DNA of 64,000 bases from Candidatus Rubrimentiphilum sp. (GTDB taxonomy: Bacteria > Vulcanimicrobiota > Vulcanimicrobiia > Vulcanimicrobiales > Vulcanimicrobiaceae). The stretch lies in the NCBI GenBank assembly GCA_035710515.1, contig DASTDE010000003.1:1-64000 (forward strand), read 5' to 3'. Position 1 is the first letter of the stretch; every line of letters starts with the position of its first letter. A model generated the notes under the pieces. It was given only the letters and a program-made list of their open reading frames with translations. It had not been told where the DNA came from and ran no database searches. This document shows, piece by piece, positions 45,305-54,514 of this stretch. The position numbers were made by a program, and so were the translations under genes.

Positions 45305-48300
45305 CTATTGAAAGTTGCGCGAGCGAATGCCGCCGACGGCTGCGTCTGCGTCAAAGGCCCAGACTTTGCGCGCCAGCACGTCGATACAGCCGCTCTCTTT
45401 TTGCAGCTTGCCCTCGACGATCACCGTCATCGATTGCCGGATGACGCGGCGGTACCGTTCGTAAACGTCCGGGCGCACGATGACGTTCACCAAGCCGGTT
45501 TCGTCCTCCAGCGTTAAAAAGACAAAGCCTTTGGCGGTGCCGGGCCGCTGGCGTGTGATGACGAGGCCACCGACTTTGCATATCGTGTTGTGCGGCATCC
45601 CGGCCAAACCTCCGGCGGTAACGACGTTTTGCCGGTCGAGTTCGGCGCGCATGTGCGCGATCGGCTGAACTTTGGGCGAGATACCGGTCGCCCACAGGTC
45701 GAACGCGGTTTCCTGACGCGCCGAGATCGCGGCGAAGCGCGCGGCCGGTTCGTCGATCTCCATCAGCCGTCCGAGTTCGCCGCGCGTTTCGCGTTCGTCC
45801 AATCCGCGTAAAGCCCACATCGCCTCGCGCCGCGATGCAAACCACGGCGCAAATGCGCCCGCGACGGCCAAGTTTTCAATTGCCTCCTTCTCCAGCTGCG
45901 TGCGCTGCGCAAAATCGCGTAGATCGGCAAAGGCGCCTTGCGCGATCGCCGCCTCCAGCCGCTCGCGCTGGGCTTCTCCCAAACCGCGAATCACGTGAAA
46001 GCCCAGCCGCAGCGCGCCTTCTTCATCCACAAAACTCCAAAACTCGCTGGAGTTGACCGTCACAGGTTTTACGGCAACACCGTGACGGCGCGCGTCGTTG
46101 ACCAGTACTTCGGTCGAGTAAAATCCCATCGGCTGCACGTTGAGGATCGCCGCGGCAAAAACCGCCGGATAGTGACATTTGAGATACGCCGATTCGTACG
46201 CGAGCAATGCGAAACTGGCCGCATGCGATTCGGGGAAACCGTAGTCGGCGAAGCCTTCGAGCATGTGGAAGAGCTGCTCGGCGGCGGCACGATCGATGCC
46301 GTTCTCGACCATGCCTTCGACCATCTTCGGATAGAGTTCGAGCATACGTTCGTGCGAACGTTTGTGCCCCATGGCGCGGCGTAAGCGATCGGCTTCAGCC
46401 GGCGAAAAGCCCGCGGCCTCGATCGCCATGCGCATGCCTTGCTCCTGAAAAAGCGGCACGCCCAGCGTGCGTTCGAGCACGGGTTTGAGTTTGGGATGCG
46501 GATACGTCACGGGTTCCAGTCCCGACCGCCGCCGCAGAAACGGATGGATCATCTGCCCTTGAATCGGCCCCGGGCGAATGATCGCGACCTGCATGACGAT
46601 GTCGTAAAAACAGGCCGGCTTCATGCGCGGCAGCATGGACTGTTGCGCGCGCGATTCGATTTGAAAGACGCCGATCGTGTCGGCGCGCTGCATCATGGCA
46701 TACGTCGCCGGATCGTTTTGCGGGATCGTATGTAAGTGTAGATGCTCCCCTCGACAAGCTCGGGGTCCCTTCGTCAGGCTCAGGACAGGCTCTTCGAGAG
46801 GCTCAGGATGACAAAAAACGCGTCCGTGCAGAGCAAACGCCTCCCGTAAAAGCGAAAGCATGCCCAGGCCAAGCAGATCGATTTTGATCAGGCCGAGATC
46901 TTGCAGGTCGTCTTTGTCCCACTGCACGATCGTTCGATCGCGCATCGTCGCCCACTCGACCGGCGCCACCCGCACGAGGGGATCGCGCGTGATGACCATG
47001 CCGCCGGAGTGAATGCCCATGTGCCGCGGAAACCCGTCGATACGTTCGCACAATCCCAGGAGCCGTTCGCCGAATACATCGTCGAGCGGCCCGACCGCGC
47101 CGCCGAGCGATTCATTGGCGTCGTATTCGCGCGCCACGGTGTCGACTTGCGCGAGCGTCAGCCCCAATGCTTTACCGATGTCGCGAATGGCCGATCGCGT
47201 GTGATACGTCACGACCTCCGCCGCCATCGCCGCGTGCGTGCGCCCGTAGCGGTCGTACACGTATTGAATGACCTTCTCGCGATCTTGATGCGCGAAATCC
47301 ACGTCGATGTCGGGAATCTCTTTCCGCCCTTCGGACATGAACCGTTCGAAAAGCAAGTCCATGCCGATCGGATCGACCGCCGTGATGCCGAGCGCGTAAC
47401 AGACCGCGGAATTAGCTGCCGAACCGCGTCCCTGACAGAGCACGCCGAGCTCTCCCGCGGCACGCACGATGTCCCAGACGATCAAAAAGTAGCCGGCCAA
47501 ATCGGCCTTGGCGATCATCCCGAGCTCGTATTCGAGTTGCCGTTCGACCGCCGAACTCAGCGGCGAGCCGTAACGTTCCGCCGCGCCGCGATAGACGAGC
47601 TCGCGCAAATAGCTCTGCCGCGTGTAGCCGTCCGGTACCGGAAAGATGGGAAACTGGCCGGTCAGGCGATCGAGCCGGAAGGCGCAGCGTTCGGCGATCG
47701 CCAGCGTGTTGGCAATCGCTTCCGGATATCCGGCGAAGATCTGCGCCATCATCCGCGCCGGCTTTACATGATACTCGGCGTTGGGACGCAGCAGCGCTGT
47801 TTCGCGCGCCTGCGCGAGCGTGGTTTTTTGTTTGATGCAAAAAAGCGCGTCGGCCAAACGTGCGCCCTCTTTGGTCGCGTAGAAGACGCCGTTCGTCGCC
47901 ACGCACGGAATCTGCAGCTCGCGCGAGAGTGCGAGCGTCTCCCGGCAGAGCCGGGCGTCGGCGGCATGCAGATGATGCTGCAGCTCCAGATAGAGACGTC
48001 CGCCGAAGCGATCGCGCAACGAACGCGCTTTGGCAGCGGCAGCCGCACCGCCCGCCAGGACGGTGAGCCCATCCGTGCGGTTGTCAAAATCCTCGAACTC
48101 CAGCCGCGGCTCGCCTTTGCTTCCCCGCAGCTGCGCGAGCGAAATCAACTCGCAGAGATTGGCGTAGCCGGACTCACTTTCGACCAGCGCAACGATTCGC
48201 TGGCCATCGCCGAAGGTGAGCTCGCTGCCGATGATGCCGGGCAGTTTGCGTTCCGCAGCAGCTTTCGCAAACCGCACCGCGCCATAGAGTCCGTCCCGGT

Positions 48301-48421
48301 CGGTAAGTGCTAGAGCCTGCAGCCCAAGTGCGGCTGCCGTTTCGACGAGCTCTTCGGGATGCGATCCGCCTTCGAGAAACGTGAAGTTGCTATGCGCGTG
48401 CAGCTCGGCGTAGCCGAGCAT
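45305..48421 (-). CDS. dnaE2: Error-prone DNA polymerase DnaE2
   Basis: 1038 residues, C-family polymerase of the ImuC/DnaE2 type. PHP domain at the N-terminus (AELHAHSNFTFLEGGSHPEEL), palm with catalytic PDIDVDF (Asp373, Asp375) and IKIDLLGLGM (Asp515), helix-hairpin-helix region, and an OB-fold at the C-terminus (TICKVGGLVITRQRPGTAKGFVFLTLEDE). Performs mutagenic translesion synthesis with ImuA and ImuB. ATG overlaps the imuB stop (TGATG). Residues about 536-558 (CHPEPLEEPVLSLTKGPR) are a dispersed repeat insertion right after the third catalytic Asp region; the frame is kept and the protein resumes with LHTIPQNDPATY. Its stop abuts the convergent TonB-like gene. Confidence 0.95.
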   Translation of the reverse strand: MLGYAELHAHSNFTFLEGGSHPEELVETAAALGLQALALTDRDGLYGAVRFAKAAAERKLPGIIGSELTFGDGQRIVALVESESGYANLCELISLAQLRGSKGEPRLEFEDFDNRTDGLTVLAGGAAAAAKARSLRDRFGGRLYLELQHHLHAADARLCRETLALSRELQIPCVATNGVFYATKEGARLADALFCIKQKTTLAQARETALLRPNAEYHVKPARMMAQIFAGYPEAIANTLAIAERCAFRLDRLTGQFPIFPVPDGYTRQSYLRELVYRGAAERYGSPLSSAVERQLEYELGMIAKADLAGYFLIVWDIVRAAGELGVLCQGRGSAANSAVCYALGITAVDPIGMDLLFERFMSEGRKEIPDIDVDFAHQDREKVIQYVYDRYGRTHAAMAAEVVTYHTRSAIRDIGKALGLTLAQVDTVAREYDANESLGGAVGPLDDVFGERLLGLCERIDGFPRHMGIHSGGMVITRDPLVRVAPVEWATMRDRTIVQWDKDDLQDLGLIKIDLLGLGMLSLLREAFALHGRVFCHPEPLEEPVLSLTKGPRACRGEHLHLHTIPQNDPATYAMMQRADTIGVFQIESRAQQSMLPRMKPACFYDIVMQVAIIRPGPIQGQMIHPFLRRRSGLEPVTYPHPKLKPVLERTLGVPLFQEQGMRMAIEAAGFSPAEADRLRRAMGHKRSHERMLELYPKMVEGMVENGIDRAAAEQLFHMLEGFADYGFPESHAASFALLAYESAYLKCHYPAVFAAAILNVQPMGFYSTEVLVNDARRHGVAVKPVTVNSSEFWSFVDEEGALRLGFHVIRGLGEAQRERLEAAIAQGAFADLRDFAQRTQLEKEAIENLAVAGAFAPWFASRREAMWALRGLDERETRGELGRLMEIDEPAARFAAISARQETAFDLWATGISPKVQPIAHMRAELDRQNVVTAGGLAGMPHNTICKVGGLVITRQRPGTAKGFVFLTLEDETGLVNVIVRPDVYERYRRVIRQSMTVIVEGKLQKESGCIDVLARKVWAFDADAAVGGIRSRNFQ
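46747..46812. repeat. Dispersed repeat copy inside dnaE2 (variant with GACAAGCTCGGGG end)
   Basis: Contains CCCTCGACAAGCTCGGGGTC, then TCAGGCTCAGGACAGGCTC and AGGCTCAGGATGACA. It is a longer, compound variant: two CTCAGGA units in the same direction. On the gene strand it reads CHPEPLEEPVLSLTKG. Confidence 0.75.
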
Positions 48422-49878
48422 CAGTCATACGCGCCTTGCAGATACCACTGCTCGCCTTGGCGGTAGATGCGGCACAGCGCGCCGTCTTCCAGCAGCACGT
48501 CGTACTCGTCGCGCACCACATGCGTTTCGTGCCAGCCGTCGTCCACGCGCCACGGCCCCGCGCAATTCATAACCGCGCGCGCATCCACGCTCGCCGGCAC
48601 ATTCCCGCGCACTTTTACCGCAACTTCGCGCACCGCCAGCATACGAAGTTGCGGTGCGGAGATAACCGAGGTCCCCTTCGACGATGCTTCGCATCGCTCA
48701 GGGCCGCTCGGCGAAGCCTCGCGGTCCTTCGATACCTCAGGATGACAATAAGTGTAACGTGATTCCAAAAGATGCGCCGGACGCACGCGCGCTTGGTGCG
48801 CCTGCACGTCGCCGGCTGCCAGCAGCCGCTCGAGCGCCACCGCGAGCGCTTGCGGATCCGGCTCGTTGCGCGCAAAGAGCGTCGCAAAGACGCCGCATTC
48901 TTCTAAGCGCATGGCTTGCAGGCGCAGGCCGGTTATGGGCGCATCGAACGTCTGCCCCTCCAACTTTGCACGCAGGATGTCGAGAATCGTACGCGGATCG
49001 GCCGTCGGCTGCGCGAAGCCGGCGTCCAATTCCCGCAAATCGCCGTTTTCGCATTCGAAGGTCGTTTTCAGCAGCGCGACGGCTTTGCCGGCGCGGTTCA
49101 AGTCGCTGCAGACGCGCTCGGCCAGCACGCGCAATGCAAAATAGACCTGCTCTTCTTGCACGGCGCTGCCCTCGCCGAAAACTGCGGCTTCGATCTGCAG
49201 CGTATACGGACGCGGCCGGAACGGCGCCGCGTCGATGCCGCGCGCATACTCGTGCCAGCGTGCGGCTTGAGAACCGAAACGGCGCACGAATGGCCCGTGC
49301 GGCAACCGCGCCAGCTCGCCCAGCGTACGAATGCCCAGCAGGTGCAGCCGTTCGAGCACCCGCGTCTCCAGCGCGAGCACTTCAAGCGGCAGCGGCGCCA
49401 TCAGGTGCGCGGCTTCATCGGGCGCGCAGATACAGCCGTCGCGCACGTAGGTGGCCGCGCGCGCCACGAATTTATTTGGCCCGGCGGCGACGCGCACCGG
49501 CAGATCGAACGGCGCGAGCGTTTGACGTGCACGCGCGATCCAATCGCCGGGTGTGCCGCCGCAGCCGCGCATCTCCGCATAAGCGGTGCCTTCAGCCGCA
49601 TCGTCGACCAGCGGTGAAAGCGCATCGAGCGCGTCGAGCATATCTTCCCACAGCGCATGCGAACGAACTGCATCGTGCACGAGGACGCGCGCGCCGCCGG
49701 CCGCTGCGCAGGCTTGCAACACGGTCTGACCCGTGCGCGCGCCGAGCGCGTGCGCGGCTTCGTCAACCTCGAGCACCCGTCCGCGATCCGCTTTGTCGGC
49801 CAGAATACACATGCCGCCCACATGCGGTTGCCGCGCGACGGCAAGTGCGAAATTCGCGACGTGAATGCAGAGCAGCAT
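48421..49878 (-). CDS. imuB: ImuB, catalytically inactive Y-family polymerase-like mutasome subunit
   Basis: 485 residues from the ATG at 49878, which overlaps the imuA stop (TGATG). Y-family architecture, but the first metal-binding Asp motif is replaced (LCIHVANFALAVA instead of D-x-D-x-F), and the second acidic motif is degenerate (LVDDAAEGTAYAEMRG), as expected for ImuB. A helix-hairpin-helix stretch is visible (LERLHLLGIRTLGELARLPHG) and a little-finger-like region (FGEGSAVQEEQVYFALRVLAERVCSDL). Adaptor linking ImuA, the clamp and DnaE2. A clear beta-clamp box was not identified. Residues about 377-402 (CHPEVSKDREASPSGPERCE) are a dispersed repeat insertion before the C-terminal part. 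Confidence 0.9.
   Translation of the reverse strand: MLLCIHVANFALAVARQPHVGGMCILADKADRGRVLEVDEAAHALGARTGQTVLQACAAAGGARVLVHDAVRSHALWEDMLDALDALSPLVDDAAEGTAYAEMRGCGGTPGDWIARARQTLAPFDLPVRVAAGPNKFVARAATYVRDGCICAPDEAAHLMAPLPLEVLALETRVLERLHLLGIRTLGELARLPHGPFVRRFGSQAARWHEYARGIDAAPFRPRPYTLQIEAAVFGEGSAVQEEQVYFALRVLAERVCSDLNRAGKAVALLKTTFECENGDLRELDAGFAQPTADPRTILDILRAKLEGQTFDAPITGLRLQAMRLEECGVFATLFARNEPDPQALAVALERLLAAGDVQAHQARVRPAHLLESRYTYCHPEVSKDREASPSGPERCEASSKGTSVISAPQLRMLAVREVAVKVRGNVPASVDARAVMNCAGPWRVDDGWHETHVVRDEYDVLLEDGALCRIYRQGEQWYLQGAYD
48672..48748. repeat. Dispersed repeat copy inside imuB
   Basis: Contains CCCCTTCGACGATGCTTCGC, GCTCAGGGCCGCTCGG and the core TTCGATACCTCAGGATGAC. Gene-strand reading begins CHPEVSKDRE, the same frame as in mutS2. 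The longest copy in the window together with the one at 52837. Confidence 0.8.
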
Positions 49879-50546
49879 CAGGCGATCCGCAAGCGCGCGA
49901 CGGCGCCGGGCGCACCGCGGCGATGTTTGAACACCTGCGTGCAAACTTCATAACCGGTGAGTTCGCGCAAAATACCGCTGCCTTCCGACCACAGCACGCG
50001 TTCGATCGCGCACCGCACGCGCGTGGAAGCAAAATATCCGAGCTCGGTGCCGGCTTGCGCTCCGAGCGCCAGCAAGAGCGTATCCGATTTTTGCGCGAGC
50101 GCACCAAGACGCGACCACACCGTGCCGCGCATGTTCACGGCGGGCAATGTCACCAGGGCAAAAGTGCGCGACCGCAGCAAGATGTCGGCGCAGCGCGCCG
50201 TTGTCAGCGGCGCCGCGGCGCAGACGAGCAGCAATCGTTCCAGGCGGACGCCCGCGCGCTGCAAATCGGGCGGATAGAGCGAGCCGTCGTGAATGGCGGC
50301 CGCAAACCCCGTGCGGGTGGCGGCCGCCAGCGCCCCGGCCAAAACCGAGGTCCGTCCGGAGCTCTGTGGACCCTCAAGCGTCGCGATGCTTCCCCGGACG
50401 AATCCGCCGGCCAGCGCCCGGTCCAGTTCGGCGAAGCCGCTCGAAAAAGCGCTCGGGTCGGCAGCCACGATCTGGCCCGCGGCGCGCACGTCCAGCCCGG
50501 CCTTCAGGCTCGCGAACGTTTCGGCGACGGCGGCGGCAGGAACCAT
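49878..50546 (-). CDS. imuA: ImuA, RecA-like mutasome subunit
   Basis: 222 residues. RecA/RadA-like core: FSSGFAELDRALAGGFVRGSIATLEGPQSSGRTSVLAGALAA, where the Walker A element is GPQSSGRTS: the invariant Lys is Arg, so ATP hydrolysis is doubtful. Then ERLLLVCAAAPLTTARCADILLRSRTFALVTLPA. The C-terminus (VFKHRRGAPGAVARLRIA) is basic, as in ImuA proteins that contact ImuB. Start ATG at 50546 sits only eight bases after the -10, so the mRNA is nearly leaderless. First gene of imuA-imuB-dnaE2, controlled by the LexA box at 50563-50576. Confidence 0.85.
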   Translation of the reverse strand: MVPAAAVAETFASLKAGLDVRAAGQIVAADPSAFSSGFAELDRALAGGFVRGSIATLEGPQSSGRTSVLAGALAAATRTGFAAAIHDGSLYPPDLQRAGVRLERLLLVCAAAPLTTARCADILLRSRTFALVTLPAVNMRGTVWSRLGALAQKSDTLLLALGAQAGTELGYFASTRVRCAIERVLWSEGSGILRELTGYEVCTQVFKHRRGAPGAVARLRIA

Positions 50547-50554
50547 GGGCTCTG

Positions 50555-50584
50555 ATCCTAATCGAACATATGTTCGATTGTCAA
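50555..50584 (-). promoter_or_regulatory. SOS promoter of imuA-imuB-dnaE2 with a perfect LexA box in the spacer
   Basis: On the minus strand TTGACA (50584-50579), an 18-base spacer, and TAGGAT (50560-50555). The spacer contains CGAACATATGTTCG (50563-50576), identical to the Gram-positive (B. subtilis-type) LexA consensus; the symmetry extends to 20 bases (50560-50579). A bound LexA would block polymerase directly. The predicted transcription start is within about two bases of the ATG at 50546. Confidence 0.9.
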
Positions 50585-52369: not shown

Positions 52370-54514
52370 GTGGAGCATTCCATTCCCACGTTGCGCGTGG
52401 GCATCGACGTCGGCGGGACGTTTACCGACTTAGTGGCGGTGGACGTCGCCACGGGCGAGCGTACATCGCTCAAAGTCTCCTCGACGCCGAGAGCGCCGGA
52501 ACAGGGCGTCATCACTGCACTCCAGCTGCTGCTCGCAGGCTATCCTGAGCCGCCGAGTCTTGAGTATCTCGCGCATTCCACGACGATCGCCACCAACGCG
52601 CTGCTGGGACAGATTCACCTCGAATTGCCGCGTGTCGCGTTCTTAACGACGGAAGGTTTTCGCGACGTCATAGAAATCGGGCGGCAGAACCGCAGCGAAG
52701 TCTACAATCTCTTCGTCACACGACCGAAACCGCTGGTCGCGCGCCACGATCGTATTCCCGTTCACGAGCGGCTCGATTATCGCGGCGAGGTTCTCGTGCC
52801 GCTCGAACAAAGCGAAATCGATCGGGTAATTGAAACCCTTCGCATTCGCTCAGGGCCGCTCGCATCTGCTCGCGCCCCTTCGATACCTCAGGATGACAAC
52901 CGGATACCTCAGGATGACACGGAGCGGCCCATTCAGTCGATTGCGATCGGGCTTCTTCACTCGTACGCAAACAGCGTGCACGAACGCATGCTCGGATCCG
53001 CGATCGCGGCCGCGCTGCCCGGCATACCGGTGACGCTGTCGAGCGAGATCGATCCGGAATACCGTGAGTACGAACGTTTCTCGACGGCGGTCGTAAACGC
53101 GGCGCTCATGCCGATCGTGCACGGCTACCTCGAACGGCTGGCGCAGGCTTTAAAAGAGCTCGGGATCTCAGCGCCGCTCTACGTCATGCAGAGCAACGGC
53201 GGCATCGCCGCAGCCGATCGCATCGCCAGGATGCCGGCCGCGATCATCGAGAGCGGCCCCGCCAGCGGCGTGATCGCGGCGGCCGAGCTCGCGCGCGGCG
53301 CGCAGATCGAACGCGTGCTTTCCTTTGACATGGGCGGCACGAGCGCCAAGGCGGGCACGATCGCCGGCGGCGTCGTGCACGTGGCGGCCGAATTCGAAGC
53401 TGCGGGATCGACACACAGCGGCCGCTCCGTCAAAGGCAGCGGTTATCCGGTCCGGTTTCCGTTTGTCGATCTGGCCGAAATCAGCGCGGGCGGCGGCACG
53501 ATCGCGTGGATCGATGAAGCGCGCGCGCTGCGAGTCGGTCCGATCTCGGCGGGTGCGGATCCCGGCCCGGCCTGTTACGGCCGCAGTGATAACGCTACCG
53601 TTACCGACGCCAACGTCGTGCTCGGACGCTTGAATCAAACCGCACTCGTCGGCGGAACCTTTCCTATCGACGCGCAGCGGTCGCACGCCGCGATCGCGGC
53701 GCTCGCGGAGCAGATCGGCCTCTCAACTCCGGAAACAGCCGCTGGAATCGTGCGCATCGTCGACTCGCAAATGGCGCGCGTCTTGCGCATCGTGACGGTC
53801 GAGCGCGGACTCGACCCGCGCGAGTTTTCCTTGGTCGCTTTTGGCGGAAACGGTCCGCTGCACGCCTGCGCGTTGGCCGCCGAACTGGGAATATCGAGCA
53901 TCATCATCCCTGAGAATCCCGGCGTCTTCTCGGCACACGGGCTGCTGGTAGCGCCGCTCCAGGCCGGCTACGTGCGGCCGCTGCTGCAACTCGCGGATCG
54001 CGTCGAACCGTGGGAGCTCGATGCACTTTTCGCCGAGCTCGAAAGCGAAGCGGGTCTCGCGCTTCGCGAGCAAGGCGCTCGTGACGGCGAGATTGCAATG
54101 CGGCGGCACTTTGACGCGAGATATCCGGGTCAGAGTTTCGAACTCTCGATTGCCGCGGGCGATAATGCGAGCGGCGCCTTTCACGACGAACACCGGCGGC
54201 GTTATGGCTACTCGGTCGAAACCGAGCCGGTCGAGCTGGTGAACGCGCGCGTGACTGCGACCAAGACGCTTCCGCGATTCCCCACAAGCGCCGCGCCGCC
54301 GGGTAATGGCCGCTCCGCGCCCGAGCAACGGCCGATGTGGGTGAACGGCGATTTTGTTTCCGTGCCCGTTTACTCGCGGAGTTCGCTTACCGGTGGCCGA
54401 GCTTTCGACGGTCCGGCAATCGTGGAGCAATATGATTCGTGCGTTTTTGTGGCGCCGGAATGGAATGCGCGCGTCCGCGGCACTACGCTGCACTTGGAGC
54501 GCCGCGGTGAATGA
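52370..54514 (+). CDS. Hydantoinase/5-oxoprolinase subunit A (HyuA-like)
   Basis: 714 residues, GTG start at 52370. ATP-binding actin-like fold: LRVGIDVGGTFTDLVAVD (phosphate 1), HSTTIATNALL, VLSFDMGGTSAKAGTI (phosphate 2), ISAGGGTIAWID, GADPGPACYGR, and VAFGGNGPLHACALAAELG. With subunit B it hydrolyses a cyclic amide such as hydantoin, N-methylhydantoin or 5-oxoproline using ATP, or acts as an acetone-carboxylase-like enzyme. Residues about 156-183 contain a repeat-derived insertion (APSIPQDDNRIPQDDT) in which the last part of the repeat is duplicated. Overlaps the CHAD gene by eight bases. Confidence 0.9.
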   Translation: MEHSIPTLRVGIDVGGTFTDLVAVDVATGERTSLKVSSTPRAPEQGVITALQLLLAGYPEPPSLEYLAHSTTIATNALLGQIHLELPRVAFLTTEGFRDVIEIGRQNRSEVYNLFVTRPKPLVARHDRIPVHERLDYRGEVLVPLEQSEIDRVIETLRIRSGPLASARAPSIPQDDNRIPQDDTERPIQSIAIGLLHSYANSVHERMLGSAIAAALPGIPVTLSSEIDPEYREYERFSTAVVNAALMPIVHGYLERLAQALKELGISAPLYVMQSNGGIAAADRIARMPAAIIESGPASGVIAAAELARGAQIERVLSFDMGGTSAKAGTIAGGVVHVAAEFEAAGSTHSGRSVKGSGYPVRFPFVDLAEISAGGGTIAWIDEARALRVGPISAGADPGPACYGRSDNATVTDANVVLGRLNQTALVGGTFPIDAQRSHAAIAALAEQIGLSTPETAAGIVRIVDSQMARVLRIVTVERGLDPREFSLVAFGGNGPLHACALAAELGISSIIIPENPGVFSAHGLLVAPLQAGYVRPLLQLADRVEPWELDALFAELESEAGLALREQGARDGEIAMRRHFDARYPGQSFELSIAAGDNASGAFHDEHRRRYGYSVETEPVELVNARVTATKTLPRFPTSAAPPGNGRSAPEQRPMWVNGDFVSVPVYSRSSLTGGRAFDGPAIVEQYDSCVFVAPEWNARVRGTTLHLERRGE
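52837..52920 (+). repeat. Dispersed repeat copy inside hydantoinase A, with a partial duplication
   Basis: Contains CCCTTCGCATTCGCTCAGGG, CCGCTCGCATCTGCTCGCG and the core TTCGATACCTCAGGATGAC, followed by a second GATACCTCAGGATGACA. The 18-base tail duplication keeps the frame and gives PSIPQDDN then RIPQDDT. Confidence 0.8.

Follow-up and report, generated by a model that had tools for sequence, protein, structure and literature searches.

Mutasomes of the imuA-imuB-dnaE2 type, found in Caulobacter and Pseudomonas and, as imuA'-imuB/dnaE2, in Mycobacterium, combine a RecA-like ImuA, an inactive Y-family protein ImuB with a C-terminal beta region, and a second polymerase III alpha subunit, and are regulated by LexA (as outlined in the available portions of PMC6511836 and PMC10421592). 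Here we describe an operon of the same gene content and order in Candidatus Rubrimentiphilum sp., encoded in a 64,000-nucleotide stretch (the window) at the start of contig C3 (DASTDE010000003.1) of a 2.54-Mb genome of Candidatus Eremiobacterota that is 96% complete. The locus is, in all probability, an ordinary SOS mutasome operon repressed by LexA through a Cheo-type operator. Unlike the known mutasomes, it has a very diverged ImuA and ImuB, repeat-derived insertions, and an operator within the promoter spacer of a probably leaderless transcript. The mycobacterial ImuB carries the beta-clamp-binding motif QLPLWG (stated in the accessible part of PMC10421592), which we did not find here by eye.

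Two other described systems resemble its regulation. As in the Bacillus lexA (dinR)-yneA divergon with its Cheo boxes, GAAC-N4-GTTC-type boxes separate lexA from a divergent gene for a LysM protein that has a hydrophobic N-terminal stretch (by eye). Here, unlike in Bacillus, the divergon occurs in a phylum with an outer-membrane usher, and the YneA score of the LysM protein falls under the curated cut-off. B. subtilis YneA is an SOS-induced LysM-domain membrane protein that blocks septal wall synthesis (according to the accessible part of PMC13396833). The LexA regulon of Streptomyces shares the tCGAAC-N4-type box and the targets dnaE2, recA, and lexA; in contrast to that regulon, as far as the available text of PMC9380542 describes it, boxes at nrdJ and ftsY-recA are conserved here, and the imuA-imuB-dnaE2 operon replaces a dnaE2-dinP pair. 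For Eremiobacterota, no description of the SOS response was found by title and abstract in the open-access literature.

The operon and its operator

The genes, the predicted operator, the promoter elements, and the insertions are listed in Table 1. By its sequence, the cassette is whole, in agreement with the first-pass annotation, which had been made from the DNA alone and had called it a complete SOS mutasome. The one-base overlaps that it reported at the imuA/imuB and imuB/dnaE2 junctions, and the perfect palindrome that it placed in the promoter spacer, are likewise there; both overlaps read TGATG.

Table 1. Features of the imuA-imuB-dnaE2 locus (positions in the window)
Feature	Positions	Strand	Description	Basis
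imuA	49878..50546	-	RecA-like accessory protein, 222 amino acids	Profile matches
imuB	48421..49878	-	Y-family-like scaffold, 485 amino acids, start at 49878	Weak DNA polymerase IV models, alignment, predicted fold
dnaE2	45305..48421	-	Error-prone C-family polymerase, 1038 amino acids	NF004225 and motifs
LexA operator (predicted)	50563..50576		CGAACATATGTTCG, perfect palindrome	Sequence and conservation
-35 element	50579..50584	-	TTGACA	Sequence
-10 element	50555..50560	-	TAGGAT	Sequence
ImuB linker insertion, repeat-derived	48655..48747	-	About residues 378-408; repeat core 48736-48747	
DnaE2 insertion, repeat-derived	46754..46816	-	About residues 536-556; repeat core 46802-46813	

In profile searches, DnaE2 scores 1256.6 bits against NF004225 (cut-off, 939), and it contains PDIDVDF and IDLLGLG, which we take to be polymerase motifs. 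ImuA passes the cut-off of the RecA family (PF00154; 31.8 bits against 27), and in 28 of 30 loci of relatives imuB is accompanied by an ImuA match. ImuB has no match in Pfam; its best score, 43.9 bits against a model of DNA polymerase IV (cut-off, 389), points to a diverged Y-family protein. Its structure, predicted from an alignment of 17 sequences with a mean predicted local distance difference test (pLDDT) score of 80.6, shows two folded parts, with a C-terminal beta region. Inspected by eye, its first catalytic region reads CIHVANFALAVAR and lacks DxD, presumably the catalytic-region motif, and residues 330-360 contain no clear counterpart of a clamp-binding motif like QLPLWG. The sequence QLRML, which follows the insertion in ImuB, was considered as a clamp motif and dropped, as in the alignment it falls where the C-terminal beta region begins.

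Upstream of imuA, the elements run TTGACA-AT-CGAACATATGTTCG-AT-TAGGAT-CAGAGCCC-ATG: the palindrome fills the 18-nt spacer between the -35 and -10 elements, and the ATG follows 8 nt downstream of the -10 element, so that the mRNA is probably leaderless. This geometry was compared across 47 loci, of which 3 had no ImuA match and 5 had no box in the searched stretch. In all 39 imuA promoters left, TTG or TTT is found no more than 10 nt upstream of the box, and all 28 of those from families 1 and 2 have an in-frame ATG 15 to 17 nt past it; a leaderless imuA mRNA is therefore predicted for these two families.

The box itself is widely retained. Searches with ImuB matched 53 of 60 relatives, some only via other polymerases, and 44 genomes were examined; the best 30 imuB loci all come from the organism's own family. 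A box at imuA or imuB is present in 41 of the 44 genomes, the other three being two contig ends and one N gap at the promoter. Within the own family, 25 of the best 30 loci have it, with two more (L276 and L368) once the displaced imuA was fetched; it is also present in both genomes fetched from family 2 and in all 12 fetched from family 3. In L200 the box lies at imuB, and no ImuA was found; in L378, one of the genomes fetched from the other two families, BLAST detected no ImuA and the RecA model matched one.

The lexA-LysM divergon and other conserved targets

A PF01726 search finds a single LexA in the genome. It carries the helix-turn-helix and S24 peptidase domains, scores 239.7 bits against TIGR00498 (cut-off, 110.95), and has AAG, GDSM, and TVKRF in place, presumably in their customary roles. 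A LexA predicted to bind some other motif, which the first-pass annotation had named as telling against its reading, is not what was found: of the 24 positions in residues 26-49, 18 are identical in the LexA of Bacillus mojavensis (and 9 in that of Escherichia coli), and the stretch from lexA to a divergent open reading frame (ORF) for a 98-residue LysM protein (PF01476; 39.7 bits, cut-off 20.9) contains three exact boxes. Such identity has to be read with caution, as L101 LexA, from another class of the phylum, also matches at 17 of 24 positions, yet a search of 400 bp there gave no box.

LexA was matched in 55 of the 60 relatives searched, and 56 lexA loci were examined, 51 of them from the organism's own class. 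Every one of these 51 loci has a divergent LysM ORF beside lexA and, in the 400 bp searched, two or more sites that differ from GAAC-N4-GTTC at no more than one position (in three scrambled controls, two such sites occur in 0, 2, and 11 of the 51). Asymmetric boxes of the form CGAAC-N4-GTTTG/CAAAC-N4-GTTCG occur 99 times in the 51 loci versus none in either control. The five LexA loci of other classes, from 4 genomes, have neither such a box nor the LysM gene; all five are long branches, and one has just some 546 bases upstream.

The first-pass annotation had also proposed finding lexA and recA in the genome and scanning for the same box. The box is there at lexA; in our genome none directly precedes recA, which lies behind ftsY, and the box is found upstream of ftsY instead (L047, 3503-3516). 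In families 1 and 2, all 18 loci have a box ahead of recA, 16 of them upstream of ftsY and 2 between ftsY and recA (further ftsY-recA loci include L354 and L357). For nrdJ, which encodes the class II ribonucleotide reductase, 30 loci (L279-L308) were compared: 27 have a box in the 500 bp ahead of the gene, 23 of them strict, compared with 0 of 30 in each of three sets of scrambled controls. Within the reductase itself (NrdJ; L022, 1-1447), there is a weak match to an N-terminal domain of YebC (23.2 bits; cut-off, 36).

Strict boxes anywhere in the locus were found at lexA in 17 of 51 loci, at imuB in 26 of 30, at nrdJ in 23 of 30, and at recA in 17 of 29; the best of six scrambles gave 2, 1, 5, and 3, respectively. 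The lhr helicase was rejected as a conserved SOS target, with a box within 500 bp upstream in our genome only (1 of 30 loci). A strict box occurs somewhere in 7 of the 30 lhr loci (best scramble, 0), showing that stray boxes do occur. Boxes seen in the single genome, near dprA-like/higB-like ORFs, a DNA-3-methyladenine glycosylase gene, an ORF read as HNH-like (with no family match), and a XerC/D-like gene, are only candidates.

In the mechanism that we propose, LexA bound to the Cheo-type box in the spacer of a strong housekeeping-type promoter would block RNA polymerase until DNA damage activates RecA and LexA cleaves itself. A polycistronic, probably leaderless mRNA would then start at the imuA ATG or a few bases off, and the one-base stop/start overlaps may couple translation of ImuA, ImuB, and DnaE2. 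ImuB, as a catalytically dead Y-family scaffold, would recruit DnaE2, with ImuA, for error-prone lesion bypass and the ensuing mutagenesis. The predicted regulon would include this operon, lexA, the divergent YneA-like LysM protein as a putative division inhibitor that may arrest division, nrdJ, and, in two families, ftsY-recA.

Operator type and cell envelope

The first-pass annotation had presented the operator as a Gram-positive-type box in a diderm. Both observations hold: CGAACRNRYGTTYC is attributed to Firmicutes and Actinobacteria alike (in the accessible part of PMC2248561), and the window has a gene for an outer-membrane usher (PF00577; 78.5 bits), in agreement with a diderm envelope. 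The paradox that this contrast implied does not stand. Besides the 51 class loci, all 30 lexA loci fetched from 43 genomes of another phylum have the box (scrambles, 0 or 1), and none of these 30 has a LysM ORF beside lexA. Of the best 80 named LexA loci, out of more than 580 candidates, 69 have a box in 300 bp when one mismatch is allowed (0 or 1 of 80 for scrambles), and a divergent LysM ORF is found in 55; nine Eremiobacteria-like loci among the 80 (L106-L114) account for 8 of the boxes and 9 of the LysM ORFs. The box is also present at the lexA genes of Sporomusa and Anaerospora, which we take to be diderm Bacillota, and absent from a third locus of this kind, L177 (Selenomonadales). Judging from these loci, the Cheo-type operator tracks the lineage of LexA and not the type of envelope, and the apparent contradiction therefore dissolves.

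The best named matches of our LexA, at 67 to 79% identity, are from metagenome-assembled genomes of Candidatus Eremiobacteria/Eremiobacterota (L106-L112). Two public metagenome-assembled genomes labelled Rhodospirillales and Proteobacteria (L113 and L114) hold Eremiobacteria-like lexA-LysM loci and are probably mislabelled.

Since the lexA-LysM divergon and the box look like those of Bacillota, one could suppose that Bacillota or Actinomycetota recently passed on the cassette along with its Firmicutes-type regulation by horizontal transfer. We consider this unlikely: in a quick LexA tree of 79 rows, the 18 Eremiobacteria rows form one clade (Shimodaira-Hasegawa-like approximate likelihood ratio test [SH-aLRT] support, 99) that is not nested in any supported clade of Bacillota or Actinomycetota, and the lexA-LysM arrangement is universal among the class loci. 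The backbone of that tree is unresolved, and an ancient transfer into the ancestor of the class may have taken place.

LexA control, insertions, and significance

Several results weigh against LexA control of a mutasome as proposed here. The best model for ImuA is that of ImuA itself (NF033429), at 54.4 bits, far from the cut-off of 150; the best NCBIfam match of the LysM protein, YneA (NF010723; 54.1 bits, E value of 1.2e-14), stays under its cut-off of 60. Four genomes of the organism's own class, among the 60 relatives, yielded no LexA match, and the box count at imuA or imuB covers the 44 genomes examined. Family 3 departs from the pattern in more than one way: none of its 11 testable loci has a box on the recA side, and allowing one mismatch yields, in 6 of the 11, only a site some 880 to 950 nt beyond the start of ftsY, which falls at recA or within it; and an in-frame start follows the box within 24 nt in just 4 of its 11 imuA promoters, in one case as a TTG 7 nt away, overlapping the -10 element. 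Genome-wide, the looser forms of the box are not enriched: CGAACRNRYGTTYG occurs in 10 places (expected, 6.4 to 8.1), CGAAC-N4-GTTCG in 12, one of them at ftsY (11.6 to 14.8), and GAAC-N4-GTTC in 43 (57 to 68). These counts, near or under expectation, were rejected as proof, and the case for a LexA operator therefore rests on position and conservation.

The chance-level frequency of loose matches is also what would favor the view that the palindrome is a site of another regulator, or fortuitous, and that the operon is outside LexA control. This view is very improbable, however, given that the same kind of box recurs at lexA, nrdJ, and ftsY-recA across genera, with scrambled controls near zero, and that the recognition region of LexA is Bacillus-like. 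The exact 14-mer CGAACATATGTTCG occurs in 2 places in the genome versus 0.01 expected. On one side of its second copy is a HigB-like ORF and on the other the conserved part of a dprA-like ORF (L018, 1605-3029), which takes in the copy if its 5' end is drawn as long as possible.

As the first-pass annotation noticed, two of the three proteins, ImuB and DnaE2, carry repeat-derived insertions; none was noticed in ImuA, for which no aimed search was made. The repeat core, CTCAGGATGACA, has 113 copies in the genome versus 0 for the reversed control. The extra residues of DnaE2 are missing from the five same-genus relatives compared, and L273, from another genus, has a short CHPEQSRG at that loop. 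In the ImuB linker, five same-genus relatives each differ in sequence, and several of these sequences look repeat-derived by eye. Residues 356-411 of ImuB, between a helix and the C-terminal beta region, have pLDDT values below 50 in the predicted structure, which places the ImuB insertion in a linker predicted to be disordered. The insertions thus seem to be tolerated and not adaptive. That these additions, about 31 residues in ImuB and 21 in DnaE2, have knocked out the mutasome is hardly credible, as the reading frames stay open throughout them, the one in ImuB falls between folded parts in a low-confidence linker that varies within the genus, and the polymerase motifs of DnaE2 are present.

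The CTCAGGATGACA repeats form a dispersed family that sits in frame within coding sequences; 6 of 30 copies inspected are in stop-free stretches of at least 250 codons. Another copy in the window, at about 52840-52923, lies in an ORF (52370-54514) read as putatively hydantoinase-like.

The probably LexA-repressed mutasome operon of this genome gives a phylum for which no SOS description was found a regulon that can be tested. Three features stand out: a diderm class has a lexA-YneA-like divergon, the operator sits in the promoter spacer, and recA follows ftsY with one box for both. The Cheo-type operator marks a lineage of LexA and not a kind of cell envelope, and the fixed spacer-operator promoter makes a clean predicted damage reporter for these organisms. 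The known distribution of the lexA-LysM divergon gains a diderm class, which bears on the origin of SOS division checkpoints. A tentative scenario, which we find conceivable but on balance somewhat doubtful, is that a Cheo-box LexA and a divergent LysM/YneA-type division brake did not arise in monoderms and go back to a diderm ancestor that Eremiobacteria share with Bacillota and Coriobacteria-like lineages. In that case, a YneA-type checkpoint that binds peptidoglycan would operate beneath the outer membrane of Eremiobacteria, and LexA would act in the spacer of leaderless mutasome promoters.

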